Source: Acetobacter musti (lineage in GTDB: Bacteria > Pseudomonadota > Alphaproteobacteria > Acetobacterales > Acetobacteraceae). Taken from it: 64,000 nt of DNA. The notes under the pieces were generated by a model that was not told the DNA's origin, searched no databases, and saw nothing but the letters and a program-made list of their open reading frames with translations. The stretch covers positions 62,001-126,000 of the forward strand of contig NZ_WOTB01000011.1 in NCBI RefSeq assembly GCF_011516835.1, written 5' to 3'. The position numbers were made by a program, and so were the translations under genes. Positions 5,451 to 56,800 of this stretch are shown one piece after another (position 1 is the stretch's first letter; each line of letters begins with the position of its first letter).

Positions 5451-7697
5451 TTAAGGGATGTCCGGCGTCGTTTCGGGAAGCCCGGCCTCACTCAGCAATC
5501 CGCTGAGAATCCGGCGCTGCCGTTCGGGAAAATGCCCGTACTGTTCCATCACCGCGGCCACCGGGAGCGACGGCGCCAGACGGGCAAGCTGCTCCCTTAC
5601 ATCCGCTCTTTCGCCTGAGGTATCCGCTGCCCCGTCGCGCTGAAGCTGCTGCAGGGCGGCAAGATTAAGCACAAGCATCGCCACCCGCGTCGGCGCTGTG
5701 CTCAGGGATGTTCTGGCCCGTCGTGCCGCCGCCGCCGCCTGGCCGGTAAGAAGTAACATGAGGACAAAGTCGACATCGAACAGATCCACCAGAGGATGCG
5801 TCGGGTGCGACTTCGCAAAAAGATCCAGCGCGCTACAGCCCGCTTCCGGGTCTCCGCTGATCAGGCTCGCATAGGCGCTGACCGTGGCAATGACACTGCC
5901 CGGCGGACTGGAAGCCCGCAGTTCAGAAAGCAGTGACAGCCCGTATTTCTGTTCGGCCGGATTGTTCAGGAGCAGCCGTGCGAGAAGCAGTCTGCTGGTG
6001 ATGCTGTCAGGCATGACCTGCACCAGACGGCGCGTCAGCTCCGTCGCCACCTGAATGTCTTTCCGACAGGCGCCTGCGGTCCATTGTTCAAAAGATCTGA
6101 CAAGCCGGAAGATTGCCGAGACAAGAAGAAGGAACGGCTGATCCTGTTCCCGTTGCAGGGCGCGCTGAAGCAGCATCTGCACCTGGGGATAAGCGGCAGG
6201 CTCATTCCGGCTGATCAGCGCGAAGGCCCGCAATGCCGCTTCCGCCGGCAGAAGATCTTCCGCCGGACGCCCAGCCATATTGCGGGCTTCCGTGATCGCA
6301 ATCCGCCACGCAATCTCCGTCGTGAGCAAAGCGGCCGTATCATCAACGGTTTCAGGCGTAATATGAAAACGGTCACCCCAGATGATGACGTTTCCCCGCC
6401 GCCGGTCAGTGACCCGAACGGTCAGCCGGGCAGCGTTGCGATGAGACCCGGCTGAAGACGCGCCGGGCAGTGTCGTGTCACTCTGAAGTTTTGTTTCGAC
6501 CAGATAGTCGGAAACCGGTGTATTTCTGGCCTGAGAAGACTTTCCGGCTTCCTGAGCGACGGTTTCAGGTGGAAAGACCGACAGAAATCCGAACTGAGCC
6601 AGCTCGGTCGTCAGAAAGTCGAATAATGTTTCTGTGTCACGGGGCCGGAGTGCCAGACCCGGACCGCCGGTGCCGTGCAGAAAACCAACGCTGGCGATAT
6701 GGCCGTACAGAGAGCTGTGACGTTCGCTCTGCTCAGAAGCCAGATTTCCCGGCGGCCCGCTGACCGCCGCATCGGAAAAGGACGTGGCATCGTTACCGGG
6801 CGACGCACCCATTCCTTCGGATGCAGTTTTTCCACCCTTGTGCCGGACCCGAAGCTCGGAAATGACAGCCATCGTCGACGGTCCGGGCTCGGCCCCGAGA
6901 GTCTCCTGAAAGACGGCCAGGCACTGTTCCGCGGTGAACAGTCCCGCGCCGGTATCGTTTTTCCGCACAAACTCCCGAAGCTGAGCCTTCCAGGCGTTTT
7001 CATTGAGCCGGTCCAGACTGAGCAGACGCGCGGCCGCGGTCATTTTCTGTTCCGGCTCAGGAAGAGAGAGCAAGGCCTGTTCAAGAGTGGCGACAAGATG
7101 CTGCCGCAGTCTCTGCCGCTGTGCATGCAGCCATTCATCCAGCGCCGGATCGACCGCATCGAGATCGGCGAGCAGAACGGCGTCGGTTTCGGGAAGTTTA
7201 AGGATGCCGGACGCCGTTGCGTTCAGATAACGTTCAGCATCGACTGTCGTCAGTACCGGTTTCAGAGCGAGCGTATGCCGCTGGACATCGACAATGTCGG
7301 TCCCCAGAGGACTCAGCGCTTCCGCAAGGCGGTGAATTTCCTGCCTCAGCGAGGCCCGGGCCTGTTCGTCCGACCGCCGGCTCCAGAGAAGATTCGCGAG
7401 GGAACGCCGCGTTACAGCACGCCGGTCGGACAGCGCCAGAATGGCCAGAAGCCCTCTGGTTTTGGCGCCTGTCGGGGTAATGGAGGAGCCATCCAGCATA
7501 TGAGCGGACATTGAACCGAGAAGTTCAATTCTCAGGATTGCCGCGTCCGATTTTCTCAGTCCTGGTTTGGCCAGCTCAAACAACCCATGTGCTCCTGCTC
7601 GAACCTGGTTGCCGGAGCCGGATGCGGCATGTGCATCCGGCGGGTCGGTTACCGGGCTTTCAGATTCCCGTCGCGAGAGTTCCGGATCAGAGACCAC
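5451..7697 (-). CDS. SARP/BTAD-type transcriptional activator with TPR-like C-terminus
   Basis: A 748-aa predicted cytoplasmic regulator. Residues about 55-130 form a winged-helix segment of the OmpR/SARP kind (LRIELLGSMSAHMLDG, then LANLLWSRRSDEQARASLRQ). It is followed at about 135-260 by a bacterial transcriptional activator (BTAD) region (DTGAGLFTAEQCLAVFQETL). The long C-terminal part contains helical, TPR-like segments in an arrangement reminiscent of HilA/CadC-like and SARP regulators. No receiver domain or membrane segment is evident. The start codon is GTG at 7695-7697, and the ribosome site is weak. It is followed in the same direction by an intergenic region and lies upstream-facing to the Hint protein and microcin-like locus, so it is the obvious local candidate regulator (inference). 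Confidence 0.75.
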   Translation of the reverse strand: MVSDPELSRRESESPVTDPPDAHAASGSGNQVRAGAHGLFELAKPGLRKSDAAILRIELLGSMSAHMLDGSSITPTGAKTRGLLAILALSDRRAVTRRSLANLLWSRRSDEQARASLRQEIHRLAEALSPLGTDIVDVQRHTLALKPVLTTVDAERYLNATASGILKLPETDAVLLADLDAVDPALDEWLHAQRQRLRQHLVATLEQALLSLPEPEQKMTAAARLLSLDRLNENAWKAQLREFVRKNDTGAGLFTAEQCLAVFQETLGAEPGPSTMAVISELRVRHKGGKTASEGMGASPGNDATSFSDAAVSGPPGNLASEQSERHSSLYGHIASVGFLHGTGGPGLALRPRDTETLFDFLTTELAQFGFLSVFPPETVAQEAGKSSQARNTPVSDYLVETKLQSDTTLPGASSAGSHRNAARLTVRVTDRRRGNVIIWGDRFHITPETVDDTAALLTTEIAWRIAITEARNMAGRPAEDLLPAEAALRAFALISRNEPAAYPQVQMLLQRALQREQDQPFLLLVSAIFRLVRSFEQWTAGACRKDIQVATELTRRLVQVMPDSITSRLLLARLLLNNPAEQKYGLSLLSELRASSPPGSVIATVSAYASLISGDPEAGCSALDLFAKSHPTHPLVDLFDVDFVLMLLLTGQAAAAARRARTSLSTAPTRVAMLVLNLAALQQLQRDGAADTSGERADVREQLARLAPSLPVAAVMEQYGHFPERQRRILSGLLSEAGLPETTPDIP

Positions 7698-8191: not shown

Positions 8192-9973
8192 TCAGGCAAC
8201 CTGAGCACCGGCTGCACCGGCATTTCTGACCAGATACGGCCCGGCGGCGAGAACTTCAATCTCGACCATTCTTGCGAACAGCCCGCCAGAAGCGGTCCCA
8301 AGTGACAGAAGGGCATTTCCCGCTGTCCAGCGGCCCGCGCCAGCCTCGCATGAATGCCAGCCATCGATCGCGGCATCGCTTTTATGCGCAGTCAGAACCT
8401 GACGCTCACGACCGTTCGTGACGGAGATATCGCCGACGAGAACACCAAGCGCACGCCGGTCATCACAGAAAGGCCCCGTGACCTCGGAAGGACGGCTCGC
8501 ATGCGAAGCAATCCGAACGGTGTCGACACTGGCCGGAACCATGAAGCAGTACGTGTTGTCCACATGACGAACCGGACGGATCTCACGGCCACCTTCGGTC
8601 ACAAGGCGAAGATCAGGCTCCGTGACCACCTGCGCTGCTGCCGTTGCCGGATCAGCCGCCAGCCCAAGCTCTTCCGCCCGGTCCGCAAGCCGCTTCCAGA
8701 CCGGCTCGACCGTCTCCCGGTCCGTGGTCAGCGGAGCGGCCGCATCGTCCTGCCAGCTTCTGCCGCCAGCGATCGTGATGCCGCCGGCAAAATGAGGGCG
8801 CATCGAACGGATCACAGAGTTTTCAAACGTGCCGCGGTTGCCGGTATCGAGATAGCTTTCGCTGGACAGGCCCTCCGACACGATCACCGCATGCTCTTCA
8901 AGCTCGACATGGTAAAAGTCGTACGAGGTTATGGCGCGTTCGGTCACAATCGAACGACCATTCACAAGCATCCGGACCGGAATGAAACGGCCATCCACAT
9001 AGATGCAGTGCTCGGATGTCACCAGAAGATCCCGATGCGGTGCGCCCGCGCCGAACGCATCCCTGCGGATACGGACAGGATAGGCATCCTCATCAAAACC
9101 AAGGCTCGCCACGTCGGCATGCGAACGGCCCAGCCAGAGGAGCGGACGGTAAGCCGTTTCGCCATCGACCAGAACCGCGATCTCGTCACCCTCGGAAAGA
9201 GTCTCGACCAGCTTCTCGCCGTCACGGGTCAGAATATGCGTTCCGGGAAGGAAGCAGCCGTCGATCTGGCAGGAGTTTTTGCCATCGACATAAAACTGGC
9301 AGCCTGTGTAACCCTTCGAAACGGTGACAGGGATGCCAATATAACCCGACTCATTTCCACCGGAAGGATTGCCGGGAGAAGGATTTGTATTGATCAGACC
9401 CGGGTTTGTAGCCGTGTCATGATAATAACGGATGATCAGAGTGGAGCTGGTCGTGTAAGTCCCCGCAATACCCATCGTATTGGCGTAACCGCTGGGGATA
9501 TCCTGAGCGCAGATCCCGGCGCCGGTACCGAAATTGGTGATGGTCGCATTCTGCAGCGACGGATAGGTGTAGTAATCATTTCCACCCGCCGAAAGATCTT
9601 CTCCGGCCTGATTGGCTTCGTAGGACCATTTGCCAGTGGTGTTCTCAAGAACAAGCGTCGAACCCGTGCCCGCCATGTTGATCTGGCCAGCGACACTCGC
9701 GCCCGTCTTGATGTCGAGATGCGCGCCGTTGACGACAATCCCGCCCGTTGAGCCCGACGAATTGTACTCTGACGTGACAGCCGTGCCGATGGTTACGCCA
9801 GCCGGAATAACATAATATTCTCCGCTCTGCAGTGTAACCGTGCCGGCATTCGACTTCAGAACATACGGATCGGCTTCAGTGCCGCTGCCCGAGGAATAAA
9901 TGGACGTCGACGTGGTCGAAGTCTTCGTCGAGGAGGCGGCCAGCGCGCTGCTGGTGTTCGTGCTGTCGAGCAT
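8192..9973 (-). CDS. Hint_2 (hedgehog/intein) domain exoprotein
   Basis: The 593-aa protein begins with a Ser/Thr-rich, repeat-poor stretch and a region of short beta-strand segments (about 30-235, e.g. GGIVVNGAHLDIKTGASVAG) resembling the start of a beta-helix. A Hint_2 domain runs from about residue 240 to 400. Cys240 opens it (GCFLPGTHILTRDGEKLVET), the TSEHCIYVDGRFIPVRML block follows, and it closes with SSESYLDTGNRGTF. The last 190 residues are a variable tail. The Hint fold normally does autoproteolysis or splicing. In this family the activity is largely untested. No Sec signal is obvious, so export would need another route. It is divergent from the microcin-like peptide operon. Confidence 0.8.
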   Translation of the reverse strand: MLDSTNTSSALAASSTKTSTTSTSIYSSGSGTEADPYVLKSNAGTVTLQSGEYYVIPAGVTIGTAVTSEYNSSGSTGGIVVNGAHLDIKTGASVAGQINMAGTGSTLVLENTTGKWSYEANQAGEDLSAGGNDYYTYPSLQNATITNFGTGAGICAQDIPSGYANTMGIAGTYTTSSTLIIRYYHDTATNPGLINTNPSPGNPSGGNESGYIGIPVTVSKGYTGCQFYVDGKNSCQIDGCFLPGTHILTRDGEKLVETLSEGDEIAVLVDGETAYRPLLWLGRSHADVASLGFDEDAYPVRIRRDAFGAGAPHRDLLVTSEHCIYVDGRFIPVRMLVNGRSIVTERAITSYDFYHVELEEHAVIVSEGLSSESYLDTGNRGTFENSVIRSMRPHFAGGITIAGGRSWQDDAAAPLTTDRETVEPVWKRLADRAEELGLAADPATAAAQVVTEPDLRLVTEGGREIRPVRHVDNTYCFMVPASVDTVRIASHASRPSEVTGPFCDDRRALGVLVGDISVTNGRERQVLTAHKSDAAIDGWHSCEAGAGRWTAGNALLSLGTASGGLFARMVEIEVLAAGPYLVRNAGAAGAQVA

Positions 9974-10379
9974 ATTGATTGGCCCTTAAGATCGTTACGA
10001 CAAAATGCGCCGTTTGATTTTTTTTAACGTCTGGCCGTTTTTGCTGTCAATAAAATAAAACGTTAATTGTTTAGAATTCCAAAACAAAGGTTATATGTTG
10101 CCTTTGAGTAACATTCTCCACGGAACGTTCTGCTGACTGTCCATCCCTGTACTTTAACTGGCCGGATACAAAAATGCAGAATTTCCGGAGACTGACAGGC
10201 CCGCACGTCTTCAGAAATATACTGCGGCTCCGCGAGATTTATTCGCTGGAACGTTCGTCTGAAAAATATTAACAATCTCCTAAGACGAGGCGTCACGCTG
10301 TGACGTCGCGCTCACCTGTTATCCTACAGGCCCCAGGCCGAGAGGATGACGGTACCAAACATGTGGAGACAATAATCCG
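9974..10379. promoter_or_regulatory. AT-rich divergent control region with two GAACGTTC palindromes
   Basis: This 406-base gap separates the Hint gene (leftward) from the peptide operon (rightward) and is clearly more AT-rich than its surroundings. Two identical 8-bp palindromes, GAACGTTC, lie at 10123-10130 and 10249-10256. Each is preceded by G, and their centres are 126 bases apart, which is close to twelve helical turns. No open reading frame here has coding character. It very probably holds both promoters, though no single -35/-10 pair could be chosen with confidence. Confidence 0.55.
10291..10305. promoter_or_regulatory. Dyad CGTCAC-GCT-GTGACG upstream of the peptide gene
   Basis: A perfect 6-bp inverted repeat with a 3-base centre, 75-90 bases before the peptide start codon. 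Its position suits an operator or activator site near the promoter. That role is inferred from position and symmetry only. Confidence 0.4.
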
Positions 10380-10808
10380 ATGCGTGAACTGACGATGACG
10401 GAACTCGATGCGGTTTCCGGCGGCTGCAATGTCCAGCCGGGCAGCTGTTACAAGCCTTCATATCCCTGCGGCCCGTCGTATTCCTGTGGTCCGTCATATT
10501 CCTGCGGGACATCAGCGGCAATGATCGCGGCTTATGCCGGATATCTCGCCGGCGAATACAATGTCGCGGCGGATATTTTCAATCATGCCGGCTGCTCCAC
10601 CATCAGCTCCGCGATGCAGAACGTCTGCACGGACGTGAAACTCGGTTACACGGCGGGTCTGAGCATGACCGTGGCGCAGGCCACATCCATGCTCAACGGG
10701 GTCGTCTCCGCGATCGGTTCCGCTGTTACGCTGAACAAATGCGGCGGTATTGCAACGATGCAGACAATCGAATTTCCCCCGGTCAGTGGTGGTGGCTTCG
10801 GTACATAA
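10380..10808 (+). CDS. Microcin/bacteriocin-like precursor with double-glycine leader
   Basis: A 142-aa secreted-peptide precursor. The first 15 residues (MRELTMTELDAVSGG) match the class II microcin/colicin V leader pattern (MRELxxxExxxVSGG) almost perfectly, predicting C39-peptidase cleavage after Gly15. The 127-aa mature part starts with Cys16 and carries eight cysteines (16, 23, 30, 36, 42, 72, 83, 121), enough for four disulfides. Residues 26-43 are three PSYxCG repeats. Then follow Ala/Gly/Ser-rich amphipathic or hydrophobic stretches (AAYAGYLAGEYNVAADIF; LNGVVSAIGSAVTL) like the helices of pore-forming microcins. A GGAG ribosome site lies 11 bases upstream. Export genes follow directly. 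No immunity gene was recognised, so antibacterial function is inferred; a signalling or surface role is possible. Confidence 0.85.
   Translation: MRELTMTELDAVSGGCNVQPGSCYKPSYPCGPSYSCGPSYSCGTSAAMIAAYAGYLAGEYNVAADIFNHAGCSTISSAMQNVCTDVKLGYTAGLSMTVAQATSMLNGVVSAIGSAVTLNKCGGIATMQTIEFPPVSGGGFGT
10455..10508 (+). repeat. Three 18-bp repeats encoding PSYxCG
   Basis: Within the precursor gene, codons 26-43 are three tandem 18-base units reading PSYPCG, PSYSCG and PSYSCG. They spread Tyr and Cys residues at a 6-residue period directly behind the predicted leader cleavage site. The third-base differences between units suggest the repeats are under protein-level selection or are not very recent. Confidence 0.8.
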
Positions 10809-10875
10809 TCAGACTGATACGTACCTCCGTTCAGACGGACGTTCTGTTCAGTAATTCTGCCGGTTCATTACTCTG

Positions 10876-10936
10876 CGGCTCTTCTGGTCCGTTGTCCGTG
10901 ACAGCGTGCGGGAAGAGCCGTCTTTTTCTTTTCTTT
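10876..10936 (+). terminator. Hairpin plus T-rich tract between peptide and exporter genes
   Basis: A 9-bp inverted repeat (CGGCTCTTC at 10876-10884, GAAGAGCCG at 10912-10920) encloses a 27-base loop and is followed by a pyrimidine stretch (TCTTTTTCTTTTCTTT). It lies in the 186 bases between the peptide stop and the HlyD start. The likely role is a leaky terminator that lets the peptide be made in excess over its exporter, as in many bacteriocin operons. Confidence 0.65.
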
Positions 10937-10994
10937 ATCTTTCTGTCGTGAGTTTGTAAGCGAAACGCTCCGTACCTGAGAGACTCCGTTCCGT

Positions 10995-12305
10995 ATGTCG
11001 TCACTTTATCGCCAGGAAGCGCTTGACGCCCGTCGCCAGGCGTGGCTCGGGCAGGTGCAGGCGGCACAGTCGCTGTCCATCCGGATTATTTCCTGGGTAA
11101 CGCTCGGACTGGTTTTTCTCACAATCCTCTATCTTCGTTTCGGCCTTTATACGCGTCGCGTGCATGCCACCGGCCTCATGCTGCCTCCGACAGGCCTGAT
11201 CACCATCGATGCAAGCGCGGCAGGGATCGTCAGCCGGAGATTCGCCGAAGAGGGGATGGAGGTCCATAAGGGGCAGAAGCTTTTTGTCATCGACCTCGAA
11301 GCCCGGACACTCGTCGGCGCCACACAGGGACAGGTTCTCGCCCAGCTGCACAGGCAGCGCGAACTGTTCGAGCGGCAAAAGGAAATCAGGGTCGCCGACG
11401 CGCCTGTGGAAAAACAGGCCCTGGTGAATCAGATCCGGAATCTTCAGCAGCAGCACGTGCTCACCGGGCAGCAGCTGGTAAATGACGCCAAAGTGCTTCC
11501 GGTGGTTGAAGCCGCGGTGAAGCGGATGAGAGACGCGCAAAGCGCGCACCTCGTCACGGAGACGCAGTTTCAGAGCCAGCTCTATACCTATGCGCAGCTC
11601 CTCAGCAGCCATGCCCAGTTTCTTCAGAATTATACAGATACCGAAGGAAAGATTTCAGACAACACATCGAAACTGATGCGATATGACCGCCAGACGGCGC
11701 ACGACATCAACGATCTCGACCGGCAGATCGCGCAGATCGATCAGCAGATCGACGAAAGTGAAAGTCACCGTGAAATCGTCATCGAAGCACCGGAAGACGG
11801 TATTCTGAGCGCCGTGCGCGGCAATCTGGGACAGCAGGTCAGCGCAGGCACCCCTCTCGTAACATTGCTGCCGACCGGACGCGCCCTTGATGCCGAGCTT
11901 TATGTGACAAGCGCCTCCATCGGCTTTGTCCGAGAGGGACAGCCGGTCCTCCTGCGCTACGCCGCCTTTCCTTATCAGCGCTTCGGCCTCGCCCGCGGGC
12001 GGATCACGGAGATCACGCGCGCACCCGTGACGGCGACGGAACCGGGTCAGACCGGGCAGCAGGGCGGAAATACGTCTTCAAAAGACCAGAAATCGACGTC
12101 AGGCTCCGATATGTACCGGATCAGGGTCAGGCCCGATCTGCCCTACGTGCTGGCTTACGGACAGAAAAAGCCGCTCCAGGCCGGAATGGAAGTCGAGGCG
12201 GACATCGCCATCGATTCACGGCGTCTCTATCAGTGGATATTCGATCCGGTGACCAGTATGCGTGACAGCGTCATGGCTGTCAGCGGCGGGCTTGTTGATA
12301 AATGA
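10995..12305 (+). CDS. HlyD/CvaA-type membrane fusion protein
   Basis: The 436-aa periplasmic adaptor has a short cytoplasmic N-terminus and one membrane segment at about residues 28-50. A biotinyl-lipoyl half motif follows (GLITIDASAAGIVSRRFAEE), then a long alpha-helical hairpin rich in Gln and Leu (about 110-250). The second lipoyl half is VIEAPEDGILSAVRGNLGQQ, followed by beta-barrel domains. The family links an inner-membrane ABC exporter to an outer-membrane channel of the TolC kind for one-step secretion. No TolC gene is present in the window. The stop codon overlaps the start of the ABC exporter (ATGA at 12302-12305), so the two are translationally coupled. Its cargo is presumably the peptide encoded just upstream. 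Confidence 0.92.
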   Translation: MSSLYRQEALDARRQAWLGQVQAAQSLSIRIISWVTLGLVFLTILYLRFGLYTRRVHATGLMLPPTGLITIDASAAGIVSRRFAEEGMEVHKGQKLFVIDLEARTLVGATQGQVLAQLHRQRELFERQKEIRVADAPVEKQALVNQIRNLQQQHVLTGQQLVNDAKVLPVVEAAVKRMRDAQSAHLVTETQFQSQLYTYAQLLSSHAQFLQNYTDTEGKISDNTSKLMRYDRQTAHDINDLDRQIAQIDQQIDESESHREIVIEAPEDGILSAVRGNLGQQVSAGTPLVTLLPTGRALDAELYVTSASIGFVREGQPVLLRYAAFPYQRFGLARGRITEITRAPVTATEPGQTGQQGGNTSSKDQKSTSGSDMYRIRVRPDLPYVLAYGQKKPLQAGMEVEADIAIDSRRLYQWIFDPVTSMRDSVMAVSGGLVDK

Positions 12306-14509
12306 GCACGCCCTTTGAGTCTCTTCAGTTCGGCTTCGGCAAAAAAGTACCTGTCGTCCTTCAGGTGGAGGCCGCTGAATGCGGCATCGCCTGCCTTGCC
12401 ATGGTCCTCGGCTTCTACGGTCACGAGATCGACCTCGCTACCCTGCGCCGCCGTTACTCGGTCTCGATCAAGGGCGTAACGCTCCGCAGCCTGGTGCAGG
12501 CCGCCGATACGCTCGGTTTCACCAGCCGCGCCGTCCGGCTGGAACTGGAAGATCTGCCAAAACTCCGGACACCGTGCATCCTGCACTGGGGAATGAATCA
12601 CTTCGTCGTTCTGGTTTCGGCCAGAGGCGATCAGATCACGATCAATGACCCGGCAGTGGGCCGCCGGACGGTAACGTCCGATGAGGTGTCCCGTGAATTC
12701 ACGGGCGTCGCGCTGGAACTGACACCCAACGAGACATTCGAACGCAGGGACGAACGCGAAACGATTCGTCTGCGCGATCTGTTCCGGCATGTGGCCGGTC
12801 TGCGCGGCGCCCTCATGGGGCTGTTCTTCCTGTCTCTCGGACTGGAAGTCATCGCACTTATTTCACCGATGGTCTCGCAGGTCGTGATTGATGAGGTGAT
12901 CGTGACAGCGGATCACGATCTGCTGCTGACGATCACCTTCGGCCTGGCCATGCTCCTGCTGCTGCAGATGTTTCTCGGCTCCGTCCGGACCTGGGCCGTA
13001 ACATTGTTCAGCACCCGGGTCGGTCTCGAATGGAGCACCAGCCTCTTCGACCATCTGACCCGTCTGCCGCTCGATTACTTCAGCAAACGTCATGTCGGGG
13101 ACGTTCTGTCCCGTTTCGGCTCGCTCGGGTCCATCCAGCAGGCCCTGACGACCGATATGGTGCAGACCGTCATGGACGGGCTGATGGGCATCGGCATGGG
13201 AATCATGCTTTTCGTCTATGGCGGATGGCTGGGCCTGGTAGCCTGCGTCGCGCTGTTTCTGGATATTCTCCTGCGGCTGGTGACGTACCGGACCTATCGT
13301 GAAGCCTCGGAAGAGCAGATCGTCGTCAGCGCACGCCAGCAGAGCCATTTTATCGAGACGCTGCGCGGCATGGCGAGCGTCAAGCTTCTGGGCCTTAGGG
13401 AAAGACGCCGTACGACCTGGCTGAACATCGTCATCGACAGCATCAATATCAGGCTGAGACTCCAGCGCTTCGACCTGATCTACGGTCGTCTCGGTGACTT
13501 CATTTTCGGCGCGGATCGTCTGATCATGATGGTTCTGGGGGCGAGACAGGTGATGGACGGGTCCATGTCCGTCGGCATGCTCGTCGCGTTCCTGTCCTAC
13601 AAAGACCAGTTTGCGGGGCGCGTCGGATCGCTTGTGAGCACGGGCTTTAAACTGAGGATGCTCAACATCCAGAGTGACCGCCTCGCGGACATCGTCATGA
13701 CCGAGCCGGAGCCGGTCAGCCGGGCAGTGCCGACGCACCACCACGGCCCCGCGACTCTCACCTGCCGTGAGATGTCCGCGCGATACGCGGCACAGGAGCC
13801 ATGGATTTTCCGGAATATCGATCTCGATATTCCGGCCGGGAAAAGCGTCGCGATCGTCGGACCCTCAGGATGCGGCAAGACGACGCTGCTCAAGGCGATG
13901 ATGGGACTTCACCCTCTGGACGAGGGTCGTCTTTTCATCGACGAAGTCGACGTTTCGGTCCTGTCGCTGGAAGGCTACCGCGAGCGTATCGCCGGCGTCC
14001 TGCAGGATGACGGTCTTTTCTCCGGATCTGTCGCCGATAATATCAGCGGTTTCGCGGAACAGCCGGATCAGGACCTCATCACGCACTGCGCTGAAAAAGC
14101 CGCCATTCTCGATGACATCCGGCGTATGCCGATGGGGTTTGAAACCCTCGTAGGGGATATGGGCGGGGCGCTTTCCGGAGGGCAGAAGCAGCGTGTCATT
14201 CTCGCCCGCGCGCTCTACAAACAGCCCCAGATTCTGTTCCTCGACGAAGCCACCAGTCATCTCGACGAACACACTGAATCGATCGTGGCAGCCTCGCTGC
14301 GGGACATGAATATCACGCGCGTCATGGTGGCCCATCGGCCGGCGACGATTGCTCATGCCGACTATATTTATTCGTTCGAGCCCGGAGGCGTGCTTGTATT
14401 GCGCAAAAGCCCCCGGCCGGAGCCCCCGGTGACTCCGGCTCCGTCACCGGCTTCCGGTTACACAATGGCGGGACAGTTCGGATCATCCTGGAACATTTCC
14501 GGACCATAA
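12302..14509 (+). CDS. C39-peptidase-containing ABC exporter (PCAT, CvaB-like)
   Basis: A 735-aa bacteriocin/microcin maturation and export ATPase. Residues 1-135 form a C39 peptidase that should cut double-glycine leaders. The oxyanion Gln21 and nucleophile Cys27 are in QVEAAECGIACLAMVLGFYG, the catalytic His100 is in NHFVVL, and Asp116 is in INDPAVG. All are intact. A six-helix transmembrane domain spans about 160-440. The nucleotide-binding domain has a Walker A (GPSGCGKTT, about 520), signature (LSGGQKQR, about 625) and Walker B (ILFLDEATSHLD, about 650). Unlike degenerate CLD-type RTX exporters, the peptidase Cys is retained. This matches the GG leader of the nearby precursor and makes a self-consistent processing-and-export pair. 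Confidence 0.95.
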   Translation: MSTPFESLQFGFGKKVPVVLQVEAAECGIACLAMVLGFYGHEIDLATLRRRYSVSIKGVTLRSLVQAADTLGFTSRAVRLELEDLPKLRTPCILHWGMNHFVVLVSARGDQITINDPAVGRRTVTSDEVSREFTGVALELTPNETFERRDERETIRLRDLFRHVAGLRGALMGLFFLSLGLEVIALISPMVSQVVIDEVIVTADHDLLLTITFGLAMLLLLQMFLGSVRTWAVTLFSTRVGLEWSTSLFDHLTRLPLDYFSKRHVGDVLSRFGSLGSIQQALTTDMVQTVMDGLMGIGMGIMLFVYGGWLGLVACVALFLDILLRLVTYRTYREASEEQIVVSARQQSHFIETLRGMASVKLLGLRERRRTTWLNIVIDSINIRLRLQRFDLIYGRLGDFIFGADRLIMMVLGARQVMDGSMSVGMLVAFLSYKDQFAGRVGSLVSTGFKLRMLNIQSDRLADIVMTEPEPVSRAVPTHHHGPATLTCREMSARYAAQEPWIFRNIDLDIPAGKSVAIVGPSGCGKTTLLKAMMGLHPLDEGRLFIDEVDVSVLSLEGYRERIAGVLQDDGLFSGSVADNISGFAEQPDQDLITHCAEKAAILDDIRRMPMGFETLVGDMGGALSGGQKQRVILARALYKQPQILFLDEATSHLDEHTESIVAASLRDMNITRVMVAHRPATIAHADYIYSFEPGGVLVLRKSPRPEPPVTPAPSPASGYTMAGQFGSSWNISGP

Positions 14510-14713
14510 ATGCCGTTGCCGTCTCATCGGGTCCCAGAGCATGAAAAGCCGGCGTTCCGGCGGCCTCGTGACGAAACAATGGCGGAGGCATCGGACCGCT
14601 GACCGGAAGGAATGCGATAACGCCCGGATGACAGCGGGCGAGGACGTTGCTAGAAGGCCCGCAACGCCCGGTTGCATGGGCGGCCTATGGCAGTTTCACG
14701 GGAACGTCGGCCA

Positions 14714-15646
14714 ATGAAGATCGTCGCTTGTAATAGCAATCCACCTCTGGCCGAGGCTGTTGCGGCCGAGCTCAATATGCCGCTCTGCAATGCTTCGGTC
14801 CGACGATTCGCCGACATGGAGGTCTTCGTCGAGATCTTCGAGAACGTTCGCGGAGAAGATGTGTTTGTGGTGCAGAGCACCTGCACGCCGACCAACGACA
14901 ATCTGATGGAACTGCTGATTATGCTGGATGCGCTGCGCCGGAGTTCCGCGCGCCGCGTGACAGCGGTCATGCCCTATTTCGGCTACGCCCGGCAGGATCG
15001 CAAATCCGGTTCGCGCACGCCGATCAGCGCCAAACTGGTCGCCAATCTTCTCGTCGAGGCCGGAGCGGACCGGATTCTGACCATGGATCTGCACGCGATG
15101 CAGATTCAGGGCTTCTTCGATATCCCGGTAGACAATCTCTATGCCGCCCCCCTCTTCGTGCGCGATATCAAAGATCGTTACGGCGATCGTGACCTCATGA
15201 TCGTATCGCCCGATGTCGGAGGGGTGGTGCGCGCCCGTCAGCTGGCGCAGCGTCTCAATACCGATCTGGCCATCATCGACAAACGCCGGGAACGCGCCGG
15301 CGTCTCCGAGGTCATGAATGTGATCGGTGACGTAAAGGGACGTCATTGTCTGCTTGTCGACGATATCGTCGACAGCGGCGGCTCGCTGTGCAACGCCGCC
15401 CGCGCGATCAGCAATCAGGGCGCGGCCTCGGTCGGCGCTTACGTTACCCACGGCGTGCTGACCGGCAGCGCCGTCGAGCGCATCGCCGATTCACCGATTG
15501 AAATGCTGACACTGACCGACAGCATCATGGCGACCGAAGCCGTGACGGCGGCGCGCAATATCCGGCAGGTCAGCATCGCCGGCCTGCTGGCGCGTGCGAT
15601 GCGGGCCGTCTCCGACGAAAGCTCCGTGTCATCCCTGTTTGACTGA
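14714..15646 (+). CDS. prs: Ribose-phosphate pyrophosphokinase
   Basis: The enzyme makes PRPP from ribose 5-phosphate and ATP for nucleotide, histidine and tryptophan synthesis. I chose the ATG at 14714 ([20 protein letters not shown]) because it gives the usual 310-aa length and conserved N-terminus; an in-frame extension to 14672 has no family match. Key motifs are visible: the metal/ATP site [20 protein letters not shown], the flexible loop with KRR ([13 protein letters not shown]), and the PRPP-binding loop [18 protein letters not shown]. The gene stands alone after the exporter and is 14 bases ahead of a histidine phosphatase gene, so the two probably share a transcript. Confidence 0.97.
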
Positions 15647-15660
15647 TCGGGGTCCCTGAC

Positions 15661-16251
15661 ATGATCACTGATGCGCCTTACTGGTATCTCCGTCACGGAG
15701 AGACCGACTGGAACAAAAAAGGCCTCTCGCAGGGACGGACCGATATCCCCCTGAACGCGACGGGAATCGCCCAGGCCGAGGCCGCGGGCGCGATCCTGGC
15801 CGAACGGGCCGTCGCCGGCCTCAGCATCCGCCGTATCGTGTCGTCGCCCCTGACACGGGCATTACGTACCGCGGAGATCGCCGCCGACGCGCTCGGCTGC
15901 GCGAATACCCGCCCGACACTGTCGGTCGATCCCGGGCTGGAAGAGGTCTGCTTCGGTGAGCAGGAAGGGCAGCCCATGGGAGAGTGGTATGATGACTGGA
16001 TCGCCGGTCATTACACACCTCCGGGCGCGGAGCCTTTCGCGTTGCTGCGTGACCGTGCCGTCAGTGCCGTGAACCGGGCGCTCGCCGGAGACGGTATGGT
16101 GATGATCGTGGCCCACGGAGCATTATTCCGGGCGCTGAGGTCAGCAATGCGCCTTCCGGCAAATGTGCGGCTTCCAAACGCCACTCCGCTGGTGGCTGAG
16201 CCGCCTTCGGAGGGCGGCCTTTCACCATGGAAGCTGAGCGTCGTCGGCTAG
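15661..16251 (+). CDS. Histidine phosphatase family protein
   Basis: A 196-aa phosphoglycerate-mutase-like phosphatase. The catalytic motif LRHGETDWNKKGLSQGRTD is at residues 10-28, with the phospho-accepting His12. A second Arg follows in SSPLTRALRTAEI, the acid region is LEEVCFGEQEGQPMGEW, and the second catalytic His is in VAHGALFRALR. These features fix the superfamily but not the substrate. Members act on sugar phosphates, alpha-ribazole phosphate or other small phosphoesters. It follows prs by 14 bases, which hints at a nucleotide or sugar-phosphate link, but that is only positional. Confidence 0.85.
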   Translation: MITDAPYWYLRHGETDWNKKGLSQGRTDIPLNATGIAQAEAAGAILAERAVAGLSIRRIVSSPLTRALRTAEIAADALGCANTRPTLSVDPGLEEVCFGEQEGQPMGEWYDDWIAGHYTPPGAEPFALLRDRAVSAVNRALAGDGMVMIVAHGALFRALRSAMRLPANVRLPNATPLVAEPPSEGGLSPWKLSVVG

Positions 16252-16315
16252 AAAATCCTCTGCCCCGTATTTTGCACCAGAAGTAACCAGAAGCCTCCGG
16301 TCCATCCGTCGGAAT

Positions 16316-16555
16316 TCAGCCGAACAGGCTGACGGAGGCCGAACTGGTCTGCTTGTCAGTTTTTTTGTGGGTCTCCCGGGCCAGAACATTTCCTGTGGAA
16401 TCGAGCCCGATGGACACGGAACTGCCCCTGGCGCGCTGACCCGTGGCCGAAATATTCGTACTGCCAAGCGTTTTCGGCGCCCCGGACGAGCGGGCTTTGT
16501 GCTGAGTCGCGAGCAGGGCGTAGCTGGTGCCGCTGATACTGGAAACTGTTGTCAT
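16316..16555 (-). CDS. Small Ser/Thr-rich hypothetical protein
   Basis: The predicted product is 79 aa, starting at the ATG at 16553-16555. A GGAGG ribosome site lies 10-14 bases upstream, and this is the main reason to prefer it over a longer frame starting at 16621. The sequence is rich in Ser, Thr, Gly and Ala with scattered Lys/Arg, has no cysteine and no membrane segment, and opens with MTTVSSISGTSYALLATQ. I do not recognise a family. It is divergent from the CHRD gene and convergent with the phosphatase gene. It could be a short structural or secreted protein; function unknown. Confidence 0.5.
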   Translation of the reverse strand: MTTVSSISGTSYALLATQHKARSSGAPKTLGSTNISATGQRARGSSVSIGLDSTGNVLARETHKKTDKQTSSASVSLFG

Positions 16556-16700
16556 CACGGTATCCTCCGGCCGGGAATACTGAAGAGAATCAGTTATCAT
16601 GACGTAAATTATGGCGCCCATAAAACAGACTGATCATCATGAACGATGCCGGTGCTTCGGCGTTAGGCTATTGTTTATAGAAACGGTAACGGAGGTTCCG

Positions 16701-17135
16701 ATGTTCAGAACGTGTAAAGTTATCCCGCTGGCTGTATTCGCCGCCGCCGTGATCTCAGGCGCCGCACCGGCAGCCCTGGCCGCGAAAAATCCGGTCTTCA
16801 TCGGAACGTTCAGAGCCGAACACGGAACGAAGACCGCTCCGTCGGGTGAAGTCCGGGCAACGCTCGATCCGGCGACCGACGTGCTGACCTACAAAATCTC
16901 CTGGAAAGGACTTTCAGGCCCGGTCAATGCAGCCCATTTTCACGGCCCGGCCTCTTTTGATCAGGACGCCGACGTCATGGTGCCCATAGACGGTCCCTAT
17001 AAGAGCCCGCTTTCCGGAAAAGTGACTCTTGATAGCGAGCAGGCGGACCAATTGTCGCACGGACAGGTTTATGTGAATCTGCATACCGAGGCTTTCCCGA
17101 ATGGCGAGGCCCGCGCGCAGATGGTAAGGCACTGA
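16701..17135 (+). CDS. CHRD domain secreted protein
   Basis: A 144-aa protein with a clear Sec signal peptide (about residues 1-26, ending AAPAALAA). It continues as one CHRD domain: VFIGTFRAEHGTKTAPSGEV, a central AAHFHGP, and VNLHTEAFPNGEARAQM near the C-terminus. CHRD domains occur in chordin and in many bacterial secreted proteins of unknown role. The conserved His residues have led to suggestions of metal binding. The start at 16701 is supported by GGAGG ten bases upstream. It is a single gene followed by a family A repeat that may act as its terminator. Confidence 0.88.
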   Translation: MFRTCKVIPLAVFAAAVISGAAPAALAAKNPVFIGTFRAEHGTKTAPSGEVRATLDPATDVLTYKISWKGLSGPVNAAHFHGPASFDQDADVMVPIDGPYKSPLSGKVTLDSEQADQLSHGQVYVNLHTEAFPNGEARAQMVRH

Positions 17136-17250
17136 ACCGGAACAGCAGACCGGCGATCCGCAGAAAAAGCTGATTCCACGCAGAGAGTATAAGAGACTTG
17201 TTTCACAAGCCGTCCTGTGAAACTTCCTTTAAATTATCAGGAGGTTTCTG

Positions 17251-17331
17251 GTTGAGCTTTTTCCGGAAAGTTTCGGAATACGCCGCCTTTTTGAAAAAAG
17301 GCGGCACCCAAAAACTTTCATTTTTTTAAAT
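17251..17331. repeat. Hairpin repeat, family A copy 1 (partly degenerate)
   Basis: The GCCGCC(T5)G(A6)GGCGGC hairpin is intact at 17282-17305, followed by ACCCAAAAACTTTCA. The partner hairpin (GAAGCTTTTT...) is eroded to GAGCTTTTTCCGGAAAGTTTC. It lies between the convergent CHRD and cytochrome c genes, filling most of that 274-base gap, and could terminate both. Confidence 0.8.
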
Positions 17332-17409
17332 GTTTATCGTGAAGTTTTTTCTGATCCTGGCTGAAGCGAACAGGCAGCCGCCCCGGTACCTGTCTGTTCA
17401 GATGACAAC

Positions 17410-49821: not shown

Positions 49822-50840
49822 TCACGCACGCTGCCGTGCCTGTCCGGCCCGCCTGTCCGAAAGCGCCTCGTCCCAGGCAAGCTGCGCCTTTTCATGGGTT
49901 CTGATCGCCCAGTTCCGCATGGCGCGGGACATCATGCTGTGAAACCGGGAATTCGTATAAAGCTGTGTAAGAAGCTTCGCGGTGGCAGCAGGCGTTCTGG
50001 CGATCATGCCCTGAAGCGGAAGAGGAAGTGAACCGGTCTCCGCTTTCGTCAGACCCGTGAACACAACCGGCACACCCGTTGCGGCAAGGTCCATGATCTG
50101 CGGCGTGACGCCGTGATCCGCGCCCGGAAGAACGAGACCCGCGCGGGCGGAAAAGCAGAGCGCTCCGTCGTGTAACAGCGCCGCGTCGGGACAGCCGGTC
50201 CTGAGATGCGGCAGGATCGTCGCCCGGAAATAATCCTCACAGGCGCAGCGGAGATGTTCGTTCGGGCTCCCGGTAAGAAAAATCCCTGACGTGCCGTCGA
50301 AAGACTGCGCTGCACGAATGTCCTGATTGCCCAGCACAGGCAGGGTGACGATCCGGGCGCGGGGATAGCGCCGCTCCAGTTCTTCCGCGTCCTGAGAGGA
50401 GGACGGCAGAAATGTATCGACAGAGAAAACAACACCGGAGGGCGGGAACAGGCTCACGTTCCGCGCGGCGGGAGCACTTCTGCTGAGAGGAATACGCGGA
50501 ATCATCAGCAGGCGGGCATGCGGCATTTCGGCACGGATCAGCGCCTGATAACGCCTTGTGAGCTCCGCGCTGTCGATAACGACCCGATCGAACGCATCGT
50601 GATAACGCCGCAGCATATCCTCGACGCTGGTGACAAAAGGCGCACCGCAGACAGTAACGCCAGGGGCTTCGAGATCTTCCCGCACCGCCGCCGGAATCCG
50701 GGTCGGGTCCGCCGGAACGATGGTGACATCATAACCGGCTTTGCGCATGAACCGCATGTGCTGACGCAGGCCGGTAGTGACGTCGCCGGGAGCGCAGCTC
50801 TCCAGGACGGTGGTAATGACGAGGGCGCGTTTCGCTCTGG
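49822..50840 (-). other. GT-B glycosyltransferase-like C-terminal domain of the giant protein
   Basis: About 340 residues that do not look like any repeat or autotransporter part. They read as an alpha/beta protein: KRALVITTVLESCAPGDVTT, LRQHMRFMRKAGYDVTIVPA, and in the second half GLVLPGADHGVTPQIMDLAA and TGVPVVFTGLTKAETGS. The last two fit the donor-binding half of GT-B enzymes of the GT1/GT4 kind (G-x2-x-K/Q-I-M-x-x-A-x-G-V-P-V-V). The catalytic acidic residue is unclear, so the enzyme could be inactive. Domain assignment is by pattern only. Confidence 0.6.
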
Positions 50841-53800
50841 CCGGAAGGCGTATGCCCGTGCGGCGCGCTTCACGGACGGCGAGTTCGGTCTCCAGCCTTT
50901 CCGTCCGCTCTCCGGCCTCAGCCGTCGCGAGAAAATCAGCCTGGCTTCTCAGGAAATGAATGATCCGGGCGCGTTCCTCGCTGTCTCCGGCCGCGCTCGC
51001 GGCGCGGCTAACAAGAGTTTCGAGATCGGCGCCGAAGCTGTTTTCGGGCTCGATGACAAAGGGCGAGCCATACAGATCGGCGCCGTCGACCGCACGGCAG
51101 ATCCGGATGACATGCCGCTCCGCCGGTGACAGGGCGCATGGAAAGAGGACATGGAAACCATGCCGCCCGTCGCCGATGGAGTGACTGACCAGATCGGGCC
51201 TGTGACGGTTCGCCACGGTGGAACAGATGCGCCGGTCATTGAGAAACACGTCGAGCGTCACAGGGGCCGGCTGATCCGGCCCATTCCACGCCCACCCCCG
51301 CGCATCCCTGCGGGTGACATTGTCGAGATAACCCTGAACCGGTGTCAAAGGGGCGGCTTCCTGTGTCACGTGGCGTTCTTCGCTGTCCGGATAAGGCGCT
51401 TCCGGGTCCGCCGAAGCCCCGTGAGCGGGCGCGACATAGACGAAAGAGCCGGCCAGGAGCGCGTTATCGGCAGCGCGCCTGAGCTCGATGAGATGAGCGT
51501 GACCGGGATCAGGCAATGCGCCGACAGGATCGTCGAAACCGAACACGCGGGACCCGCCCGGACGGAACTCCGAAGAGCTCTCGCCGGCGACAATGGTTTT
51601 CAGAGGAACGCCGTTATCGAGAACGGTCACTTCAACAAAGGCTTCCGCATCTCCGGCCGCACGGACCCATCCTCTGAGGCGCCCGCCGGCAGACGTCTCA
51701 AGCCAGCCCGCGGTAACAATGCCGGAACCTGCGCCCGCGCCGGAACCGGCCCGCCTCTCCGCCTCATGACCGCGCCCCAGGTTATTGCGGATGATTTCGA
51801 GTTCCGGACCGTCCTCGATGCGCGGCGCGCAGTAAAGAGCAGGCGGATCGACATGATCCGGGTAAAGCTCAGCGAACTCCGCCGCATTCTGGAACAGGAA
51901 ACGGCCGCCATCGTTCACGAAGGTTTCCGAAGCCGCGCCTTCAGCCAGGATCACATCATGCGTTTCCAGCTCGATATGGAAATAATCGACACGGTCAAAG
52001 CGGCGGACCTGAACAATGGTGCTGCCGTTGACAAGCGCGCGGGCCGGAACAAGCACGCCATCGAGATACATGGCGTGAAGAGGAGACACCCAGAGATCGC
52101 GCGCCGGCAGATTTCCGCCCAGAGACCCTTTTCGGAAAACGACCGGCTGCACGGAGGGATTTCTCTGCGCGAACGTCCCGCCATAAACCCGCCGCCCGAT
52201 CCACACCACCGGCCGGACGCGGCCCGACGCGGTGACGACATGATCGCCCCGTGACAGCGTTTCGACAGGGCGCTGTCCGTCGGGCGTCAGAATCAGGGTG
52301 CCCCGGCAGTAGCAGGGCGTGTCGTCACCGGCCGGGATGATCTGAATCTGTGTGAAATCCTGATCACTTTCCGAAACCTGAAAGGTCTCGTCCGCATAAG
52401 TGCCGGTCAGATCGAAACTGTAGACATGGCCGTTTTCTTCGGTGGAGAGAACGCCGGTCGCCGAATCATAGGAATACGTCGCGTCCGCGTTCCAGACTTC
52501 ATCTTCCAGCAGAATGGTGCCGCCACTGAGGAAATCCGTGCCGCTCAGAACAGAGCCGGACCCGACCTCGATCACACCGCCCGATGAAAGCGTAAGCCCG
52601 TCCGCAGTACCGCCGGAATGCAGATCGAGCACACCACCGGCGCTGACCGTACCGGAACTGACCATGCCGCCATCGGCAATGACGGCGCTGCCACCCGAAG
52701 AGACTGTCAGACCGCTCGCCGTGCCCCCCGACCCGATATCGAGCAGGCTGTCGTCGGAAAGGGTGCCGCCGGTAAAGACGCCCCCGTCAGTGACTTCAAT
52801 CGTGCCGCCACCGGAGAGACTCATGCCGGAAACGATGGCGCTGTCCAGGAGTCTGAGCGTGCCGCCGGACAGAAGATGCTCGTCGCCGAGCGTTCCCCCG
52901 GACGAAAGTTCGGCGACCCCACCAGAAGAGATCGTGACGCCGGTGGCGCTTCCGCCACTGCCGATATCCAGAATGCCGCCGGAAAGAATTTTGGCATCGC
53001 TGACAATACCGCCCGAGACCGCGCTGGCGCTCCCCTGCGCTCCCAGGGTGACATCGCCGGCTTCGGCGTCCGTGCTGACGGTAAGAAGCCCGTCGCTGAC
53101 AGTCGCCCCGGAGAGGGTGGCATTGCCGGAAACAATGACCGCGCCGCCGGAATCAACGGTAACGCCGCTGGCGACAGCCCCCGTCTGCCCGAGTATGAGC
53201 TGCCCGCCATGAAGCATGGTCTGATAAGCGGACCCCCCGGCAACAATTTCCTCGCCGGAGCTGTAAACGGTCACATTGTCCGCGATGCCGCCGCTGCTGA
53301 CCAGAAGCTCGCCGCCATCCTCGACGGTGACGCCGCTGACCGTTCCGCCGGACGAAACGGCGGAGGAGCTGGATGTCGTGGTCAGAACGGCCGCGAACAG
53401 ACGGAACGCCCGGCTGAGAAGACCCGTGCCGGAGCTCTGCCCGGAAACCTGCGCCACCCCGCCTGAGGAAATCGTGAGCCCGCTCGCCACCCCTCCGGCG
53501 GCAACGGTTTCGCTCCCGCCGCTGAGAATGGTGGCGCTCCCCGCAGTGCCACCCGACGAGACCAGAACGGACCCACCGGAGGATATGGTGGCATCACTGA
53601 GAACGCCTCCGGAGGACACCGTGACAGTGCCCCCGGCACTCAGGGTAACGGCGGAGGCCGCGCCGCTGCTGAGAATGGTGACGGACCCACCGGAGGAAAC
53701 GATGGTGCTGCTAAGAATGCCCCCGGAAGAAACCGTCGCTGTGCCTGCGGAGCCAAGCGTAATGGTTGCCGCGCTGGCGCCGTTACTGATCCGGAGTGTG

Positions 53801-56800
53801 CCATTGTCGATGGCGCCCCCTGTAAGGGACGCACTGTCATCCAGATCGATCTGCCCGCCGGAATCGACCGTATCGAGAGAAACGGACGCACCGGCTTCGG
53901 CAACGGAAAGGAACCCACCATGAAGGGTGATATCGGAAGCCGTTCCGCCTGAAACCGTTTCGCTGCCACCACTGAAAATGGTGGCGCTCCCCGCCGTTCC
54001 GCCCGACGAGATCAGAACGGACCCACCGGAAGAGATGGTGGCATCACTGAAAGTACCGCCGGAGGAGACCGTAACGGTACCGCCGGCGCTGAGCATAACG
54101 GCGGAGGCCACGCCGCTGCTGAGAATGGTAAGGGAGCCACCGGAAAGAACGTCGCCATCGCTGAACGCGCCACCGGACGAGATGAACGCCACCCCCGACG
54201 ATCCGAGCGTGGTGTTGCTGACAGTGGCATCGTCCCGGGCGATAACGGTGCCATCATTGACGGTGCCGCTGTTTACCTGGCCGTTATCGATCCATACGGC
54301 GCCGGATGAGTCGATCAGAACCGTGCTGACGACGGCGCCACTGAGTATTCCGAGCGTGCCGCCATGGATCGTAGCATCTTCGGCAACACCGCCGCTCAGC
54401 ATTTCGCTGCCGCCGCTGTAAACCGTGGCACCGACCACATTGCCGCCGCCACTTATGGCGAGAAGACCGCCCGACGAGACGACGGTGCCGCTGGCGATGC
54501 CTTCCTGCACAGAGAGGCCGCCGCCGTAAAGAACCTGATCCCCGGAGCCGACCCCGCCTCCGGAGACGATTTCACTGCCGCCGGAACCGATCTGTGTATC
54601 CGAGGCGAGACCACCGGAACAGACGGCAATGATGGCGCCCGACCCGGCGCCGGCGGAGACCGCGCTCCCGCCGGCAGAAAGGGTGAGCACGCCGTCGGCA
54701 AGGACGGTCGCATCGCGTGAAACCCCGCCGGCCAGTACGGTCTCGGCATCATACGCCGTAAGCGCACCGCCGGATGAATCCCCGATGTAAAAACCGTCGC
54801 CGCCAATAATGTCGTCTGCCGCAGTGCCGAGAACAGTCTCGCTGCCTCCGAGGCGGATCTGCGTAGCCGAAGCCGTCGCACCGCTTTCGACAGTGAAAAC
54901 AGCGCGGTCAGCAGCCGTCACTGACGCGGCGCTGTCGAGAATGGTGCCCGAGACCAGGCTTCCCGACACCGCCGTCAGGCTGGCTCCGGCCTGGACAGCA
55001 AAGGCGTCCGCCACGCCGGCAATGGTGGCCGCCCCACCGGAAGAAAGGATCGCGCCGCCAGCACTGCCTCCGGCCCCGACAGTGACCATGTCGCCGGACG
55101 AGACCACGGCATCGCGGAGAACACCGCCAGACGAGACCACAGCGGAGCCGTCGGAACCAAGCGTGACGGTACTGACGACGGCCTCGTCGCCGACATGGAC
55201 GGAACCGTCATCAATAACGAAACCGGAGAGAGTGGCACTGTCGGAAAGATCAATCTCTCCGCCTGAATCGACTGTTGTAACGATAACAACCGCATCCGCG
55301 CCCCCGACGGTCAGGAAGCCGCCGTCAACAGCAGTATCGTCGGATATACCGTCAAAAACAGTTTCGCTGCCGCCCGAGGAAATCGTGATACCGGAGGCCA
55401 CACCCCCCGAGGAGACGCTCAGAAAGCCACCGGAAGAGACAGTCGCCGTGGAGAGAATCCCCCCGGAAGAAATGACACCGGAAGCAGCGGAACCAAACGC
55501 GGCGTTGCTGACAACACCCCCGTTCCACGCGGAGAGCGCGCCGTCACTGAGCGTGACACTGGTAACGCCAGCACTATCGGAAACGTCGATTTCGCCCCCG
55601 GACGTGATGTCCCGGATGGCAGCGACAGCAGTCTCCCCCTGAAGCGAAAGCATCCCGCCGGCAACAGTCGTATCATCAGACGTGCCATCAAGAACGGTTT
55701 CGCTGCCACCAGAGAAGATCGTGACACCGGAAGCGACGCCGTCCGGCCCGACGCCGAGCGATCCGCCGGAGAGGATGACAGCGCTGCCGGCCGTGCCGCC
55801 TGAGGAAATTCCGGCGGTTCCGGAAGACCCAAGTGTAAAACCGGTGATTTCCGCGCCGGATGTGACGCTGACAATGCCGTCGCCAATCGTGGCGCCGGTC
55901 AGGCTGGCGTTATCGGAGAGACTGATCGTCCCGCCGGAATCGACGGTGACGCTGCTGACCACAGCGCCGCTCTGTATGGCGCTCAGCTGACCGCCGTTGA
56001 GAATAATATCGACGGATGAGCCGCCGGTAATGATTTCCGTCCCGGAACCGTCAACGGTGACACCCGAGGCAACCCCGCCGCTGCTGACAAGCAGTTCGCC
56101 GCCGGAATCGACAGTAACATTGCTGACAGTCGCGCCCGGGCTAACGGATGAGTCCATGCCCGCATCAGCCGTAACGGCGGCGAACAGCTTCAGAGAGCGT
56201 TGCAGGCCGGCCTGGCCGGTGACTTCGGTGATACCGCCGGAAGAGATCGTAATGGTGGTGGCCGATCCGCCGGACGAAACCGTCATCACGCCGGATGCGG
56301 CAACAGTGATGTCAGTCGCCTGCCCGCCGCCAGAAACGCTGAGTACGCCACCGGAAGAGACATTAGCGGCGGAAAGAGTGCCGCCGGACAGGACATCGCC
56401 TGTGCCACCCCCGGACAAGGTGACAGTGCCGCCCGATCCGCCAGAGCCGATCTGCAGCGCGCCACCGGAAAGAACCGACCCGCTGCTGAACAAACCACCG
56501 GAGGAAATCAGCGCGACGCCACCAGACCTGATCATGGTGCCGGAGACGGCAGCACCGTTTCCTGCGGAGAGAGTGCCGTCATCGAGAACAGCACTGATCA
56601 GAGCAGCATCGCTGACACTGACCACGCCGGCTGAATCAATCAGGGCAGAGCTGATGACCGCGCCGGAAGAAGCGTCGAGAAGGCCGCCATGAACCGTGAT
56701 GGTCTGAGCCTTGCCGCCGCTCAGTGTTTCCGTGCCGCCGGCGGAGACAACAGCGCCGGAGGTGACGCCGCCGGAGGTGACGGCTTCAGTTCCTCCCGAG

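Follow-up and report, generated by a model that had tools for sequence, protein, structure and literature searches.

A double-glycine precursor family beside a C39-peptidase exporter in Acetobacter and Gluconobacter: a candidate surface or matrix protein

Related systems and the layout of the locus

Class II microcins, represented by MccV (colicin V) with CvaA, CvaB, and TolC, are described in excerpts of PMC10233263 as peptides of up to about 10 kDa with a core of 60-90 aa and an adjacent immunity gene. A different use of GG-motif proteins is found in Synechococcus elongatus, in which EbfG1-4, with PteB, are needed for biofilm and EbfG1-3 are amyloid-forming, according to PMC4997328 and PMC9981879. 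In addition, the bacteriocin-like gonococcal Naps promote autolysis in the absence of detectable antimicrobial activity, as stated in PMC11798529.

The locus described here shares with class II microcins the leader type, a C39 ABC exporter, an HlyD-type adaptor, and a near-neutral or anionic core. It differs from them in the size of the core (127 aa, 12.7 kDa), which is also of another kind, in the lack of a recognised adjacent immunity gene, and in having an orphan paralogue and a Hint neighbour. With EbfG/PteB it may share the use of one C39 exporter by several GG-motif proteins and a non-killing role, as far as the excerpts describe that system; the likeness is by description and not by sequence, and the EbfG genes, unlike the genes here, lie in one operon. 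The Naps, likewise compared by description and not by sequence, are similar as bacteriocin-like peptides for which the excerpts report no antibacterial role, but they are cationic and island-borne. On balance, we lean towards dedicated type I secretion of both paralogues with a product that acts at the producer's own surface or matrix, although we give this statement as a whole somewhat less than an even chance.

The window, which is the whole stretch of 64,000 nucleotides analysed (G000:C11:62001-126000), belongs to a source genome of 4.71 Mb in 138 contigs. The gene order given in the first-pass annotation was borne out by the open reading frames: the 142-aa precursor (10380..10808, plus strand) is followed by an HlyD-type membrane fusion protein of 436 aa (10995..12305, plus strand) and by a C39-peptidase ABC exporter of 735 aa (12302..14509, plus strand). 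A divergent gene for a Hint_2-domain protein of 593 aa (8192..9973, minus strand) adjoins the precursor, and next to it lies a BTAD-type regulator (5451-7697, minus strand; PF03704, 22.3 bits against a cut-off of 22.1), look-alikes of which, by appearance, adjoin the Hint gene in L014, L016, and L081. An alignment of nine exporter-linked loci revealed a conserved non-coding block of the TTTATTCKCTGGAA ... AAAAAAYATTAAC type upstream of the precursor (10236..10275), which is likely a promoter or operator. Orphan copies carry an upstream conserved block of another kind (ATTAACG..TATTATCT); a promoter motif common to both paralogue types was not found, and the two share only short words. On the 3' side of the exporter, the window encodes a ribose-phosphate pyrophosphokinase and then a histidine phosphatase, while L014 encodes a metallophosphatase and an SMC/SbcC-like ATPase (13460-17337). 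In several species this latter pair separates the exporter from the ribose-phosphate pyrophosphokinase gene; it is missing from the window (14509-14708), L023, and L024.

Anatomy, distribution, and descent of the precursor family

The precursor consists of a 15-aa double-glycine leader (MRELTMTELDAVSGG, residues 1-15), a Cys/Tyr/Pro-rich tail (16-43), and a conserved helical domain (about 45-127). The leader and the eight Cys (residues 16, 23, 30, 36, 42, 72, 83, and 121) noted at first sight were confirmed on the open reading frame; at least eight Cys in 142 residues has a probability of 1e-4 for an assumed Cys background of 1%. The three PSYxCG repeats are also present, as tandem hexamers PSYPCG/PSYSCG/PSYSCG at residues 26-43, but they start 10 residues beyond the cut and not directly after it. 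For comparison, 28 distinct homologues were gathered from the loci by a leader-and-core pattern, with L020, truncated by a contig end, left out. Conservation is seen in the leader and in a C-terminal domain of ~85 residues, with a variable stretch in between; positions R2, L4, E8, V12, G14, and G15 of the leader are invariant in 17 members. The mature forms have 111-129 aa, 11.2-12.9 kDa, and a charge of -3 to +3, and 24 of the 28 begin with Cys.

This comparison changes the picture of the core. The number of Cys ranges from 2 to 8, with odd as well as even counts and odd numbers frequent, and a conserved disulfide ladder, as had been proposed, is rejected on this ground. PSYxCG as the hallmark of the core is not supported either: the exact repeat occurs in only two members (three times in the window and once in L080) and the remaining 26 lack it, with runs of Pro/Ser/His/Cys or Ser/Tyr/Cys at the corresponding position in other members. 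The proposed hydrophobic pore-forming tail fared no better: the highest hydropathy over 19 residues is 1.23 for the window precursor and 1.36 for the family, where the usual limit for a membrane-spanning segment is near 1.6, and we reject a membrane-spanning tail since no stretch has that appearance. A lipoprotein was likewise considered, and was rejected because the Cys after GG is not accompanied by a hydrophobic signal sequence. An AlphaFold2 model from 17 sequences has a mean pLDDT of 66.6, with residues 1-42 below 50; it contains helices at 45-67, 72-94, and 98-115 and a short hairpin placed by blocks mostly at 81-86. The sequences therefore seem better described by a conserved helical domain bearing a flexible tail that changes quickly than by a disulfide-rich pore former.

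The statement that the core belongs to no characterised family is supported by searches of protein family models, PDB profiles, and structures, which gave no known family. The best PDB profile match of the precursor family has an E value of 0.073, and Foldseek of the precursor model gave 4 matches in PDB and 29 in BFVD, none at E <= 0.001. Relationship to bacteriocins is seen mainly through the leader. Curated bacteriocin-leader models matched it only below their cut-offs (TIGR01847, 12.6 bits against 15.7). Among 17 members, PF17508 (MccV) matched five weakly (best E 6.8e-4; 20.6 bits against a cut-off of 27), PF10439 (Bacteriocin_IIc) six (best E 0.011), and TIGR03949 (cerein-type) seven (best E 0.024), all below cut-off where shown. 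The MccV match of L029 and L031, the two members tested, was lost once the leader was removed, which speaks against a bacteriocin, but a 24-aa leader piece alone gave no MccV match, so that part of the match may lie in the core. The bacteriocin label rests mainly on the leader.

In these searches the family is confined to Acetobacter and Gluconobacter. The window protein matched 6 of 397 genomes of the taxonomic family, and the profile matched 18 of 395 genomes of the order (two of them, G013 and G350, through a partial model match with other cores), 13 of 49 of the genus, and 1 of 385 of the class, these samples overlapping one another. The single class match is the source genome itself. A scan of genome contigs gave 16 loci, namely 13 from Acetobacter (oeni, fallax, conturbans, estunensis, sicerae, and sp. 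UBA5411) and 3 from Gluconobacter (frateurii, thailandicus, and japonicus). The window precursor matched no plasmid at E <= 1, none of 32 pattern matches in viral contigs was confirmed, and PHROGs gave weak matches only; a phage or plasmid origin is rejected from these searches. A defence system is rejected as well, as PADLOC assigned none of its families to four proteins.

The precursor is a real gene family whose ~85-residue domain is under purifying selection. Of 17 chosen pairs, 15 yielded a dN/dS for this domain, always within 0.01-0.20, and two yielded none; the estimates are rough, with dS above 2 in two of the 15, and they argue against a chance open reading frame. Over the tail, the values run from 0 to 1.13 in the 11 of 17 pairs that gave one (17-37 codons), the highest being for the window against L024 over 22 codons. 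In a tree, a weakly supported group (75/68) unites the 12 Acetobacter members linked to an exporter; a second group (89/93) contains 11 of the 12 orphans, with L018 outside, and the four Gluconobacter members make up a third (99/96). In the source genome the two precursors are on C11 and C4, and the orphan paralogue keeps the leader. Both types occur in 11 of the 13 positive genus genomes, G399 and G409 having the exporter-linked type only (by contig position); in G387 the exporter-linked copy is interrupted by a contig end. The orphan is near genes read as queE and queC in L013, L015, L017, L019, and L082, though not in L018. QueC is confirmed by Pfam in L013 alone, and the radical-SAM gene by the orphan there adjoins QueC and is therefore read as queE.

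The exporter and its cargos

The exporter matched Peptidase_C39, ABC_membrane, and ABC_tran far above their cut-offs, and it is the only PF03412 match in the source genome. Its best solved relatives are 8vp3 (E 4.3e-93) and 4ry2 (E 4.7e-93), entries named ABC-type bacteriocin transporter. Gln21, Cys27, His100, and Asp116, which we take to be the C39 catalytic residues, align with matching residues of 8vp3, in agreement with the first-pass annotation. For the adaptor, PF13437 scored 54.7 bits, above its cut-off, while TIGR01843 (122 against 208.65 bits) and TIGR03794 (68.3 against 156.2 bits) fell short. These structures, and TIGR03796 as the best NCBIfam model of the exporter, are reminiscent of NHLP/PCAT-type export ATPases. 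However, the 495.3 bits for TIGR03796 are far under its cut-off of 853.3, the adaptor fails TIGR03794, and the precursor leader is not of the NHLP type, which is nitrile-hydratase-like. Candidate outer-membrane factors of the TolC type are available, as 33 PF02321 matches in the genome score above cut-off; these, the C39 exporter, and the nearby membrane fusion protein are export components expected for class II microcins.

The presence of the precursor follows that of the exporter. Among the 49 genus genomes, 20 have the exporter at E <= 1e-100, and the 13 in which it is at least 80% identical are exactly the 13 precursor-positive ones, the other seven showing 72-76%. All 13 falling among 20 of 49 would have P = 3e-7 under independence of the genomes, which does not hold. 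The co-occurrence suggested as a check was thus found in all 13, and homologues without the exporter, named beforehand as evidence against the idea, exist as single loci (the orphan paralogues) and not as genomes. The earlier microcin interpretation is supported only in part: the leader, a cognate C39 exporter, and exporter co-occurrence agree with a class II microcin, whereas the size and the lack of a recognised adjacent immunity gene do not.

From these components, the precursor would be cut behind Gly15 by the C39 domain, and its 12.7-kDa remainder would leave the cell through the ABC exporter, the HlyD adaptor, and a chromosomal outer-membrane channel; export as such is very probable from the sequences. 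The same exporter would also serve the orphan paralogue on the other contig, because it is the sole C39 exporter in the genome and both precursors keep the leader; this presumed shared use is the basis of the parallel with EbfG.

Related exporters stand beside other cargos. An 86-aa GG-leader protein (MK[TN]LN.SE...VAGG or VSGG) is found by the exporter in G242, G431, G402, G169, and G484, and a MRTLTTTEMDNVSGG peptide lies ~2.6 kb from it in G030; in G316 no cargo peptide was seen in a 9-kb stretch around the exporter. The 86-aa family (L073 5136-5396, and also L074, L075, L076, L077, and L078; five other Acetobacter genomes) has a leader ending in [VA][AS]GG, followed by a repetitive core of the LGD/LTDTLAGL type. 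Such cargo turnover would be expected of bacteriocins, and we count it against a surface role.

A leader profile built from 14 leaders gave two strong matches in the source genome, which are the two precursors (E 6.7e-8 and 1.9e-8), and a third, partial one (E 3). In the taxonomic family it matched 18 of 397 genomes and 6 of 102 genera, before cores that differ visibly, as judged by eye and not by a tool. L086 (5756-10768) has two divergent MREL...VSGG/VSGA Gly-rich precursors with a C39 exporter and HlyD near a Hint_2 gene, and one of these cores resembles DUF5862 below cut-off (E 3.6e-6). L085 (5735-6888) has three such precursors in tandem, also near a Hint_2 gene, and no exporter was seen in its 13-kb stretch. 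The same genomes contain further precursors of the MREL-leader type at L112 1312-1863, L084 5966-6238, and L110 1282-1596; their cores are Gly/Trp/Cys-rich or of the CGCG type, and no exporter was seen close to them.

Immunity, the Hint neighbour, and the role of the product

The absence of a recognisable immunity gene, remarked on in the first reading, held up in 11 loci, in which open reading frames of at least 25 aa were listed for the Hint-precursor gap, the precursor-hlyD gap, and the region 3' of the exporter. No convincing conserved small immunity frame was found among them, with one doubtful short candidate. In a repeat for the first two gaps (71 frames), matches in the precursor-hlyD gap link two to three loci over 16-27 residues, and short minus-strand frames in the Hint-precursor gap of seven loci match over 13-43 residues, the one in the window lying at 10063-10296. 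The latter differ widely in length and their shared part overlaps the conserved block, so they are presumed to be a regulatory element read as protein, and an immunity role is doubtful. An immunity gene 3' of the exporter is rejected as the genes there in the window and L014 are of other kinds, and RiPP modification is rejected as no modification enzyme is encoded from the Hint gene to the ribose-phosphate pyrophosphokinase gene.

The missing immunity gene bears on three readings of the product. It argues against a non-canonical microcin-like bacteriocin that would enter or damage related Gram-negative competitors, and so does the core length of 111-129 aa, beyond the 60-90 aa and the size limit of about 10 kDa given in PMC10233263. 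We nonetheless hold such a bacteriocin to be a serious possibility, if one ranked below a surface or matrix role. Protection might be provided by a gene that is not linked to the locus, by a variant of the target, or by the exporter, and the same paper mentions immunity-less Bacteroides GG bacteriocins. The MREL...VSGG leader, the weak matches to bacteriocin models, the cargo turnover, and a core near-neutral or anionic like most microcins all point in its direction. Lack of immunity would also suit a self-directed or signalling peptide, either a Nap-like inducer of autolysis or a density signal. This reading is unlikely, in our estimate: the precedent of the gonococcal Naps and the BTAD-type regulator next to the Hint gene favour it, but Naps are cationic in the excerpts of their report and the cores here range from -3 to +3, no sensor was recognised among the genes listed beside the locus, and 111-129 residues is long for a signal.

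The preferred surface or matrix role draws on the Hint neighbour as well. By tblastn with the window Hint protein, all 14 exporter loci with a testable flank (window, L014, L016, L022-L028, L036, and L079-L081) have a divergent Hint gene upstream of the precursor, although the species are related and the loci are not independent cases. Four further exporter loci lack a testable flank (L020, L021, L037, and L038; precursor or exporter at a contig end), of which L021 and L037 look like one contig. Pfam confirmed Hint_2 in four of these loci (window, L014, L022, and L080) and also close to other cargos (L073, L085, and L086). The Hint Cys (Cys240) and the TxEH motif are invariant in both alignments (A4 and A5, eight sequences each); the predicted model of the Hint protein was set aside (mean pLDDT 42.9). 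The source genome has seven Hint_2 genes, one of which encodes a 2672-aa protein with AIDA adhesin-stalk repeats (window 49822-57840, minus strand), likely a large surface protein. PMC11999647 lists a functionally uncharacterised Hint-domain protein among the genes mutated in a strain that overproduces cellulose.

One specific link is conceivable, in which Hint would form a thioester on its N-terminal domain and a Cys-first peptide would take over this domain by native chemical ligation, giving a sortase-like attachment of such peptides to a surface protein. Of the 14 exporter loci next to a Hint gene, 11 encode a mature peptide with Cys in first place. However, L022, L079, and L080 start with Phe or Tyr, and cargos near other Hint genes start with Thr, Gly, Leu, or Ala, and we consider this mechanism very improbable.

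More generally, the exported product would act at the surface or in the matrix of the producer, perhaps jointly with the adjacent Hint protein; it would be a small domain of helices whose flexible tail, rich in Cys, Tyr, and Pro, serves for cross-linking or binding. A non-killing role is favoured because 11 loci hold no convincing immunity frame, two ancient paralogues are kept together in 11 of 13 genomes, the domain is under purifying selection, no plasmid or viral-contig relatives are found, and a Hint_2 gene is adjacent, another Hint_2 protein of the window having AIDA stalk repeats. Besides the cargo turnover, the bacteriocin kind of leader, the tail dN/dS of 1.13, and the putative nature of the surface location of the Hint protein count against it. 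By analogy with EbfG/PteB, we rank a surface or matrix role a little above a bacteriocin, with a Nap-like peptide third, an order that is a matter of judgement.

In the literature searched, which lacks most subscription journals, so that absence from print is not implied, we found neither a published link between Acetobacter, bacteriocins, and double-glycine leaders nor a class II microcin from Acetobacteraceae, and did not meet a comparable set of double-glycine proteins. Excerpts report no bacteriocins in Bombella by BAGEL4 and a lysozyme-like bacteriocin in Gluconacetobacter diazotrophicus. The Acetobacteraceae appear to encode a group of secreted double-glycine proteins in which one leader type precedes varied cores, and the recurring Hint neighbour suggests a connection, open to testing, of peptide export with a self-processing domain. 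Should the proteins belong to the matrix or the surface, C39 clusters of Gram-negative genomes ought not to be labelled as bacteriocin loci by default; if they are killers, they would be a new bacteriocin type in industrially used bacteria.
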